From: Lamellibrachia satsuma
Taxonomy: Eukaryota > Annelida > Polychaeta > Sabellida > Siboglinidae
Direction of reading: 5' to 3'
Assembly: GCA_033239005.1 (NCBI GenBank)
Contig: BSQZ01000010.1
Span: forward strand, 12,452,001 to 12,516,000
DNA length: 64,000 bases
The position numbers were made by a program, and so were the translations under genes. Shown one piece after another: positions 1-63,816 of this stretch; within the stretch, counting starts at the first letter, position 1, and the number at the start of each line of letters is the position of its first letter. The notes below the pieces were generated by a model. It was not told the origin of the DNA, made no database searches, and saw nothing but the letters and a program-made list of their open reading frames with translations.

Positions 1-2782
1 GTTGTATATGAAGTTAGAGTGCTTCACTTGATTGTAAGGATGTAAACATGAATCACGAAATGTTAATTCAAATGATATGGATAATATCTTGTCATTGGCC
101 TCGTGACTGATATGTTATTTAGTATGTATTTCCATAGATCCTAAACTCAGGATTGCCTACGTGTACAGTCAATAGTGTTACGAATTTGCAATGATTCCGC
201 TTGATCTATGTTTTGCTATAGTTTAATGAATGTCTGTACACAATTGTCAAAGTTTTAGTAAGCACACCACCTGAAATTAATCTCAGTGGTATTATATATC
301 GAATTTGTTATTTGAGTTTCTACCAGGGATAAAAACGTCTGAAAAAAATTAGGTTGACCGATATGGCAATAAATCCTGCATACAACAAAATTTAAAATGC
401 TTACCTTCGAGGAGTCGGCCAGAATGGTCCAACCACATCTCATGTTGTTTTTATACTGGCTCGAACTGATGCCAAATGTTCCTTCTGCATCAGTTAGTTC
501 GACTGGGCTACCACGACAACCTGAAACGTGTTAGAGAAATGTTCAATTCGGAGTTTCCATACTCTACTATATAATTCATCATTTTATTTATTGCATGAAT
601 GATGATTGCACTTTTATTATCAATATCATTTAGGATGGAGGATATCACAAAATAGGTCCGGGTTGTCTACCATAGCCGCTGTCACTGTAAATTGGGTCAT
701 TTCATGAAAGCACGATGTTTCTAAAAACAAATTGAAACGTAACATTTTCATCGAAATAGAACCACAACACCACAAACCATTTTTAAACGTGTGCACCCGC
801 TGAATATTCTGACACCTCATGAAATAAACTAATCTCGTCCATATTCACGTACAAATTAAAATAAATAATCCTTACTCTCAATTTATATCTACTACCACCG
901 ATAACAAGTGTAACAACATCAACACACCTTCTGCTGTACGATCCTCCGTTGTAGTCCGGCTTGTAGTCGTTTCACTGGTAGTTTCTGTAATGAACACGGA
1001 AAACCACGGCTCGATTATTTATTATTGTGTTGGGATAACATTGTAGATGACATTTTTAATGATGATTGTCCTATTAATATTATATAAAGTTGATACTGCC
1101 GTGGTGGCTCACATAAAATGCGAACGTGTAATTCATCAGGGTAATTTCCACTGTAAATATTTTTATTGCATCCAAGCACCTTGCCATTGTAAGCGTAATG
1201 CAACATAAAAAGTTCAACGAAATAGAACAACAACATTACATGCCATGGTTACGAGTGTTAACACGGAACATTTTGACATCTCACGAAATCAACTGATCTC
1301 TTCCTCATCAATGTGACAAATTTTAAAAATAAATGTTTCCTTCTATTTATATCTACTCCCAACGACAAAAAGTGAAACAGCATTCAAATACCTTCTGCTG
1401 TTTGATCCTCCGTAGTAATTCTTCGTGGCGCCGATACCTCGATTGCAGTAGTGCTAATATGGATTGTAGTTGTTTCACTGGTAGTTTCTGTAATGAACAC
1501 AGAAAGCCACGTTTAATTGTTCAAAGTGTTGGGAAAACACTGTATATTAAATGTAGCTATGCTGTTTGTCGTACTAATATTAGTTATAGTGGAAATTGCC
1601 ATGGTGGTTCACATAAAATAAGTAAGGGTTGAATATCACAGCCGTTGTTATTGAATAAATGCACGTTTTCTCTCGAAACGAATTGCAGCTTACGTTTTTC
1701 ATCGAAATAGAGCCACAAAACCATATATCATGGTTAAATGTGTGAACCCTGGAAACATTCTTACATCTCATAAAATCAACTGATCTCTTTCTCCTCAACT
1801 TAAAATTATGATTCATTAACGTTCTCCTTCATTTATATCTACTCCCACCGATAAAAAACTTAAACCACATCAAAGCACCTTCTGCTGCTTGATCCTCCAT
1901 TGTGGTCAGGCTAGGGGTCGGAGCTTCACTTGAAGTTCTGTCATTTCGGCTTGTTATCGTTTCAATGGTAGTTTCTGTAATTAAAACAGAAAGTCACGGT
2001 TACTTTTGTCTACGTATTGAGAAAACACTGTAGTTGAGCTTTGCATTATGTCGCGTTTGTATTATGTTTGTCGTGCGCAAATAACATACCATCCTATGAT
2101 AATTACTTTGTAGAGGCATTGCAATGAAACGGTTAAAATATATGGTTTCCATCCTATAGTTCACGGAATGTGAAACCTGAATTTCAGCATCAATAATTGT
2201 TGTTCGGAAGAACACATCAATTTCCGTTCAGTCTCGTCAAAAGTGGGACAAACGAATCACATCTGAGGACCCCGCGTTCAATTGCCCTGACCAATTCAAC
2301 TGTGAGAATTTTTGTTTGCGTATGTATCTTTTTTGTGAGTGTGGGTGATAGCATGTCTGGTTTCGAGCGGGTACGTCTATGTGTTTCGGTATTTTGGCTA
2401 TACATTATATAACAAAGTGTGACCATAAGTCGCATGAAGGTACTTACGTGGGTTTAAAGTGATGTAATGCACTAGGAATCCAGATCGTGTAACGGATCCG
2501 TCAGTTTGGAAGAACACGTACATATAATTGTTTGTGCTAAATATAGCACTCGGTATGGCTCGTCCGCTGAATGTGCCCAAGAGAGGCGCTGAATTGACCT
2601 CTCCGTCGTACAGTTTGATTTTGTCGTAGCCTGACTCGACATCAAGCGTCAAGAACGACAATTTGATTATCTGTGAAGAATTAAGTAAGGAATGTCTCTG
2701 AATAATGTAGGTATGTGACAACCCAAATTCTAAATTCGACACAAAATAATTGATATGCTGCAAACGATAATTACAAACTCCG
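1..2782 (-). repeat. Array unit 1, at the left window edge
   Basis: Exons: CUB-C 2,448-2,670, Thr-a 1,879-1,974, Thr-b 1,392-1,487, Thr-c 928-984, CUB-N 405-520. The CUB-C partner of CUB-N 405-520 lies beyond the left edge, so the array continues. CUB-C has the YDK / GEVNSAPL / GFLVHY set shared with unit 12. Confidence 0.88.

Positions 2783-63816: not shown

Follow-up and report, generated by a model that had tools for sequence, protein, structure and literature searches.

The stretch of Lamellibrachia satsuma DNA analysed here, 64 kb in length and referred to below as the window, raises the question of whether one gene can occupy nearly all of it and what its product would be. The original prediction proposed a single giant SEA-mucin-CUB gene and stated that nothing like it was known. 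We find a single giant gene likely. With fair confidence, we read the window as most of one gene for a type II membrane glycoprotein with the order SEA-mucin-CUB, kin to the SEA-mucin-trypsin-CUB proteins of the same animal.

Exon organization of the window

By alignment to one reference unit, 110 exons could be joined in one frame on the minus strand, comprising four head exons and 106 unit exons: 22 copies of C1 (116 nt), 21 of C2 (223 nt) and 21 each of the linker exons L1 (96 nt), L2 (96 nt) and L3 (57 nt). All 110 are preceded by AG and followed by GT. The phases are uniform within each exon type (1-0 for C1, 0-1 for C2 and 1-1 for the linkers, the damaged exon left out). The summed exons amount to 13,678 bases or 4,559 codons, close to the approximately 109 phase-compatible exons and 4,540 codons proposed originally. 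The SEA domain is encoded by three short exons and the start of a fourth, followed by a Thr-rich mucin segment and the CUB array, in which three Thr-rich linker exons come after each complete CUB. The array holds 21 complete CUB domains, the number given in the original prediction, and half of a 22nd. As also predicted, the gene has no end on the left: its 3' end must lie past the left edge, as the anchor or start exon must lie past the right edge. The borders of S2 and S3, set by frame and the SEA pattern, are the least certain (Table 1).

Table 1. Coordinates of the exons and repeat units in the window
Feature	Position	Strand	Remarks
Exon S1, SEA domain start (TFNATM...FCSR)	63707–63816	−	Phase 1 in, 0 out; AG/GT borders; homology to P0085/P0092
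Exon S2, SEA domain	63435–63503	−	Phase 0-0; AG/GT, open frame; donor picked by frame and SEA pattern
Exon S3, SEA domain (CKVTRF)	63322–63368	−	Phase 0-2; AG/GT; Pfam SEA on joined stretch
Exon M, SEA end with N-G-S-V-L-V, then ~266-residue Thr-rich mucin-like sequence	61292–62280	−	
Unit 1 (diverged), CUB exon C1	60549–60664	−	
Unit 1, CUB exon C2	59824–60046	−	Pfam CUB 2.8e-22 jointly with C1
Unit 1, linkers L1 (57534–57629), L2 (57053–57148), L3 (56591–56647)	56591–57629	−	
Units 2–21, 20 tandem units of 2770–2802 bases, each C1-C2-L1-L2-L3	521–56184	−	94.2–99.7% identical
L2 exon of unit 7 (from 5' end), frameshifted	40398–40492	−	95 nt vs 96; run of A
Unit 22, exon C1; remainder of unit past left edge	405–520	−	

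The original prediction described the frame as open but for a single-base deletion in the fifteenth unit counted from the left, which is unit 7 from the 5' end. Indeed, 1,725 codons before the damaged L2 exon and 2,801 after it contain no stop, whereas reading the join through this exon without mending produces 105 stops. Its run of A has five residues; among the other 20 L2 exons, five have six A and 15 have three. Either a sequencing error or a genuine allele may account for the frameshift. Because L2 is a symmetric exon type, skipping the damaged copy would preserve the frame.

Could each repeat be a short CUB-mucin gene in its own right, complete with start and stop exons? The units share the same content, and their consensus includes four copies of AATAAA as well as short ATG frames that begin with hydrophobic residues; in two of these frames the 12-residue mean exceeds 2, and both have a phase-1 GT. 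However, these short frames may be due to chance in AT-rich introns, the exons are phase-compatible internal exons lying between AG and GT, and no match to the anchor or the S1 segment of the L. satsuma proteins P0085 and P0092 (see below) was found inside the array. We therefore regard separate genes as very unlikely. For the single gene of the original prediction speak the phases, the open frame, exons nearly free of indels, and the absence from the window of matches to the four relatives tested (P0085, P0087, P0092 and P0002; see below) in their anchor, trypsin or C-terminal regions. That all exons enter one transcript is the predicted part of this claim, drawn from the exon sequences.

The introns have features of their own. 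The C2-L1 intron of unit 1 (57630–59823) comprises 2,194 bases, as compared with 470–475 in the other 20 units; the additional DNA is GC-richer and carries plus-strand frames that resemble a decayed RTE-type retrotransposon, and a Pfam scan of three of these frames gave nothing significant. The intron that separates the mucin exon from the first CUB holds a 250-base AT dinucleotide repeat (61034–61283), and the one that splits this CUB into its C1 and C2 exons holds two copies of a 155-base tandem repeat (60094–60388). When L1 is read through past its donor (e.g., 12726–13139), the intron is oddly long open and contains several cysteines; counted from the exon start, the open frame runs for 130 codons in 11 of the 21 units and for 35–129 in the others. 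We rejected an extra domain here, as three scanned copies had no Pfam match and the open length varies from 35 to 130 codons over the 21 units. A 113-codon antisense frame (e.g., 12515–12856, plus strand) recurs across many units and is probably a by-product of their near identity; the one copy scanned had no Pfam match. Rfam and tRNA scans of the window gave no match.

The SEA-mucin head and the CUB domains

The SEA stretch alone (S1, S2, S3 and the start of M) scored 27.9 bits against Pfam PF01390, above the cut-off of 26.4, and 25.9 bits, slightly below it, when the mucin was attached. A PDB search with the stretch returned a designed filament as its sole match (E = 0.48), which is uninformative. 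The N-G-S-V-L-V motif in exon M resembles the G-S self-cleavage site of SEA domains and may mark such a site, though the motif alone is no proof of cleavage. The mucin segment of 266 residues contains 36% Thr. Two features of membrane-tethered mucins, the Thr-rich stretch and the SEA domain, are both present in the window, and the anchor exon would fall past its right edge.

For the CUB domains, Pfam PF00431 gave E-values of 9.2e-21 and 2.8e-22 on the two spliced units scanned (74.7 and 79.5 bits against a cut-off of 21.4); the remaining 19 are near-identical to those scanned. The profile searches suggested with the original prediction for the spliced translation thus support both domain assignments. 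The best PDB sequence match of a window CUB was cubilin (3kq4), in which acidic residues lie opposite the E and D positions of the window CUB. The first cysteine pair and the E, D and D positions of Ca2+-type CUBs are kept in all 21 domains, and we predict from these residues that the window CUBs are of the Ca2+ type. The roles of the residues Glu45, Asp53 and Asp98 have been described for C1s (PMC4222235).

The CUB of unit 1 has two adjacent further cysteines, and the other 20 have only the two of the first pair. Two disulfides are usual in CUB domains, although not universal, and the window CUBs depart from this pattern. CUBs with two or fewer cysteines also occur in the L. satsuma proteins P0002 (residues 844–955) and P0005, so the two-cysteine form looks like a trait of the group rather than decay. 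The linkers contain 34% Thr, 11% Ser and no Cys across 1,649 residues (62 of the 63 linker exons, all but the damaged one).

Growth and constraint of the array

The array repeats with a period of approximately 2.78 kb, and its 20 units of this length share their high identity with introns included. The near-identical modules of the original prediction are found in units 2–21; unit 1 is diverged, its CUB showing at best 64% amino-acid identity to the other window CUBs of our tree (see below). Mean identity between units decays from 96.9% at lag 1 to 95.25% at lag 11, as expected from unequal exchange, and the closest pairs lie near the left edge (units 17 and 19, 99.7%; units 15 and 20, 99.2%). 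The L1, L2 and L3 exons with parts of their introns are older duplicates of one another (approximately 75%). The gene would have grown through unequal exchange of a symmetric five-exon module of 2.78 kb. The similarity of such units, up to the 99.7% of units 17 and 19, might also come from an assembly artefact that inflated the copy number. We hold this to be exceedingly improbable, as the units differ at up to approximately 6% of sites, and false duplication is unlikely for most of them because it would not give rise to the gradient from near to far neighbors.

To what extent is the array constrained as coding sequence? Across the 20 aligned units 2–21 (unit 1 and the partial unit 22 left out), nucleotide diversity is 0.027 in exons and 0.043 in introns. 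Gaps occupy 1 of 588 exonic versus 69 of 2,230 intronic columns (Fisher 1.8e-6, with columns that are not independent). Counted as distinct indel runs, one is exonic and 39 are intronic, 37 of the latter not being multiples of three; the exons thus make up 21% of the columns yet hold 1 of the 40 runs. When the exon mask was slid round the unit, diversity was as low at 39 of 2,817 positions and gaps were as few at 52 of 2,817. None of the 20 splice columns varies, as compared with 15% of intron columns.

At the amino-acid level the picture is looser. The πN/πS ratio is 0.68 when all five exons are compared in the 19 units other than the damaged one, and 0.86 for the four exons without L2 in 20 units. 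By exon, πN/πS is 0.030/0.069 in C1, 0.018/0.020 in C2 and 0.033/0.081 in L2 (19 units), and πN exceeds πS in L1 (0.027/0.011) and L3 (0.019/0). Selection on the amino acids is weak on these values, or the copies are too young. Random change would be expected to produce 3.2 stops at the intron rate or 2.3 at the exon rate; we observed none (P = 0.04 and 0.10, respectively), which is only mildly unexpected at these divergences. Random intron segments kept an open frame in register across all 20 units in 0 of 3,000 cases for 222 nt, 15 of 3,000 for 114 nt, 68 of 3,000 for 96 nt and 322 of 3,000 for 57 nt. Owing to these rates, the short linker exons alone are weak evidence of coding, but the CUB exons are not. 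We read the array as young and frame-constrained, with a loose amino-acid constraint that is loosest in L1 and L3.

These values bear on a different reading, a coding macrosatellite that has outgrown its use. The head and the first CUBs would still function on this view, and the bulk of the array would be a recent tandem amplification under weak constraint, removed by splicing, skipped in alternative forms or partly pseudogenised. The πN/πS ratios near 0.7–0.9, with πN above πS in L1 and L3, the one frameshift, the amplification of exons and introns alike at 94–99.7% identity, and the phase 1-1 of the linker exons (62 of 62 undamaged), which makes them skippable without loss of frame, would all agree with it. 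The near absence of exonic indel runs, the invariant splice columns and the retention of the first cysteine pair and the E/D/D residues in every complete CUB argue against it, and we consider this reading unlikely.

Relatives in L. satsuma and comparison with known systems

Our protein searches took candidates of 0.55–1.75 times the query length. When the query ran from the first CUB through its linkers to the second, the search scored the 7,989 candidates sharing most words and returned 84 proteins, the top five by E-value all being from L. satsuma. The SEA stretch had one match among 175 candidates, L. satsuma P0085. In a third search with longer candidates (7,980 scored), the best 120 of 145 matches were headed by P0086, a bacterial multi-CUB protein from Aureivirga (29% identity), with L. 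satsuma P0087 second and P0092 later; the bacterial protein comes first by score because proteins with many CUBs add up scores. Further relatives may have been missed, since the candidates were limited by length and word sharing and the best 120 of 145 were listed. Despite bacterial CUB proteins in two of these searches, we rejected a bacterial or viral origin, as the gene consists of 110 spliced exons. No relative was confirmed among 50 pattern matches in viral contigs or 258 in genome contigs, and a plasmid search with positions 55001–64000 of the window gave no match.

The head of the gene has clear homologs. S1 is identical to P0085 at 31 of 35 residues, with a weaker match in the mucin, and 78% identical to P0092 over 37 residues; the first part of exon M after the SEA domain is 61% identical to P0092 over 62 aligned columns. 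P0092 was found through its CUBs, and its head matches as well. P0085 (source name "Chymotrypsinogen B, partial," 473 residues) has an anchor before S1, followed by mucin and trypsin. P0092 ("Cubilin," 1819 residues) consists of a repetitive N-terminus, a hydrophobic anchor (330–348), the S1 match (375–411), the post-SEA match (463–523), a Thr-rich stretch, trypsin, four CUBs, trypsin and two CUBs. The strongest hydrophobic 19-mer comprises residues 51–69 in P0085 (mean hydropathy 3.06) and the above-mentioned 330–348 in P0092 (2.94), ending approximately 14 and 27 residues before S1, respectively. The SEA domain of P0092 itself scores only 13.7 bits, which may reflect introns read through in the gene model; both proteins look like automatic gene models. 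P0085, P0087 and P0092 probably belong to one locus because each is listed with a longest contig of 782,786 bases.

We also calculated a maximum-likelihood tree from 46 CUB rows, namely 7 of the 21 window CUBs and 39 of the 43 domains of seven L. satsuma proteins, four short fragments being dropped. The seven window CUBs form one clade (99/99) inside a group of 26 rows (95/95), which also holds six of the seven CUBs of P0087, four of the six of P0092, all four of P0005, three P0002 rows, one P0004 row and the last CUB of P0001. The window clade has no supported sister row in this tree. The nearest single CUB is that of P0087 at 984–1099, with 59% identity to unit 1 and 51% to unit 2; the best P0002 CUB has 57% and 47%, respectively.

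P0085 and P0092 thus share with the window gene the S1 segment, preceded in both by a hydrophobic anchor, and P0092 additionally shares the post-SEA stretch, the Thr-rich mucin stretch and CUBs of the same tree group. They differ in that trypsin directly follows the mucin, where the window gene has a CUB. P0092 has six four-cysteine CUBs, two trypsins and, on visual inspection, no Thr linkers in series, whereas the window gene has at least 21 CUBs, mostly with two cysteines, and no trypsin in the window. The gene is most likely a member or a close offshoot of the L. satsuma SEA-mucin-trypsin-CUB family. The novelty asserted in the original prediction is accordingly reduced by the homologous head and by the SEA-CUB plan of matriptase and enteropeptidase; the window gene still stands out for how many CUB-Thr modules it has and how uniform they are, and for having no protease so far. 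Several relatives are filed as "Cubilin" in databases, which hides the family. The trypsin-bearing L. satsuma proteins P0085, P0087, P0092, P0002 and P0004, of which four have CUBs and two (P0085 and P0092) an anchor with a Thr-rich stretch, are filed as Cubilin, Chymotrypsinogen B or Ovochymase-1; this tubeworm protease family seems worth a study of its own.

Such relatives raise the possibility that the same gene encodes a true multi-domain protease, with one or more trypsin domains past the left edge, i.e., a giant membrane serine protease resembling polyserase or ovochymase with an overgrown stalk. P0092 has trypsin, four CUBs, trypsin and two CUBs behind the same head, and P0087, P0002 and P0004 also combine CUBs with trypsin. 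However, in tblastn of P0085, P0087, P0092 and P0002 against the window no match covered 15 or more residues of their trypsin domains, the best E-value for the trypsin pieces alone was 1.9, and no window stretch matched the anchor, trypsin or C-terminal parts of these four proteins. The CUB at the place where P0085 and P0092 have trypsin also speaks against a protease, which we keep as a tentative alternative.

Most likely, judging from the sequence, the window gene belongs to the SEA/CUB/serine-protease type and encodes a siboglinid membrane protein of type II orientation whose CUB-Thr stalk has expanded enormously; the window has no exon for a protease. The type II reading, which has the best support, is drawn from the membrane anchor that P0085 and P0092 carry before the same head. 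By analogy with these two, an N-terminal cytoplasmic piece and a signal anchor would be encoded outside the window, followed by a membrane-proximal SEA domain, the Thr-rich mucin and at least 21 CUBs parted by Thr linkers that could be O-glycosylated. The SEA domain would probably cut itself at the G-S of N-G-S-V-L-V, leaving the huge outer part held non-covalently. The product may be a long, flexible, glycosylated stalk presenting many near-identical Ca2+-type CUB ligand sites on an epithelial surface, for example a tube-secreting or mucus epithelium, or shed from it. In a related tubeworm, mucin-like and CUB-domain genes are among the genes with high expression in the collar alone, which the study links to tube formation (PMC8476170), and the CUB domain is among the enriched domains of the Osedax root transcriptome (PMC5237233). 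Our literature search on CUB, SEA, mucin and siboglinid themes, which covered the titles and opening abstract lines of the papers listed, returned no description of such a gene.

Among known systems, the plan of matriptase (ST14) and enteropeptidase is similar to the window gene with its presumed anchor, having an N-terminal anchor and SEA domain with CUB further out. Both have two CUBs each, other modules (LDLRA in matriptase) and a C-terminal protease; to our knowledge, neither contains a mucin stretch or a CUB-Thr array. Self-cleavage of the SEA domain is established for matriptase, with the cut at Gly149-Ser150 during maturation, and because the halves stay together its outer part is tethered non-covalently; a further cleavage between SEA and CUB can shed this part (PMC5567652). 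Enteropeptidase recognizes its substrate via its CUB2 (PMC9663175). By analogy with these two proteases, the window protein may display a long series of near-identical CUB binding sites along a glycosylated stalk, with SEA as the tether.

Cubilin resembles the window gene in having very many CUBs in one protein, but the CUBs of the cubilin fragment 3kq4 clearly differ among themselves, whereas those of the window are near-identical. We know of no SEA domain or mucin linkers in cubilin. It has 27 CUBs after eight EGF-like repeats and no transmembrane segment, being held by amnionless (PMC5799345). We rejected a plain cubilin relative, as the window gene has a SEA-mucin head and no EGF repeats precede its CUBs. 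L. satsuma P0002 ("Cubilin, partial") is similar in its Thr-rich linkers between CUBs and its one two-cysteine CUB, and different in its trypsin between CUBs, EGF repeats, an apparent C-terminal hydrophobic segment and linkers without serial repetition.

A more distant parallel is LPA, the gene of apolipoprotein(a), which derived from that of the protease plasminogen. A rather unlikely scenario is that a serine-protease lineage of the gutless tubeworms turned one member into a giant, non-enzymatic, sheddable surface fiber. Anchored through its self-cleaved SEA domain, this fiber would carry dozens of near-identical CUB sites of the Ca2+ type along a mucin stalk; its copy number, hence its length, would differ between individuals as in human apolipoprotein(a), and it would serve as glycocalyx, tube matrix or microbe-binding coat. 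On our main reading of a single giant gene, the product would rank among the larger CUB proteins and would illustrate how tandem exchange of a frame-neutral exon module can remodel a membrane-bound SEA/CUB/protease family into a giant repeated fiber. The gene is a concrete, testable candidate for a component of the tubeworm surface, mucus or tube. The analogy with LPA lies in a kilobase-scale, exon-bearing repeat within one gene whose copy number sets the length; it is an analogy only, given a kringle in place of a CUB and a vertebrate plasma protein. In LPA, the kringle IV type 2 repeat measures 5.6 kb and gives rise to more than 40 isoforms (PMC6314250).
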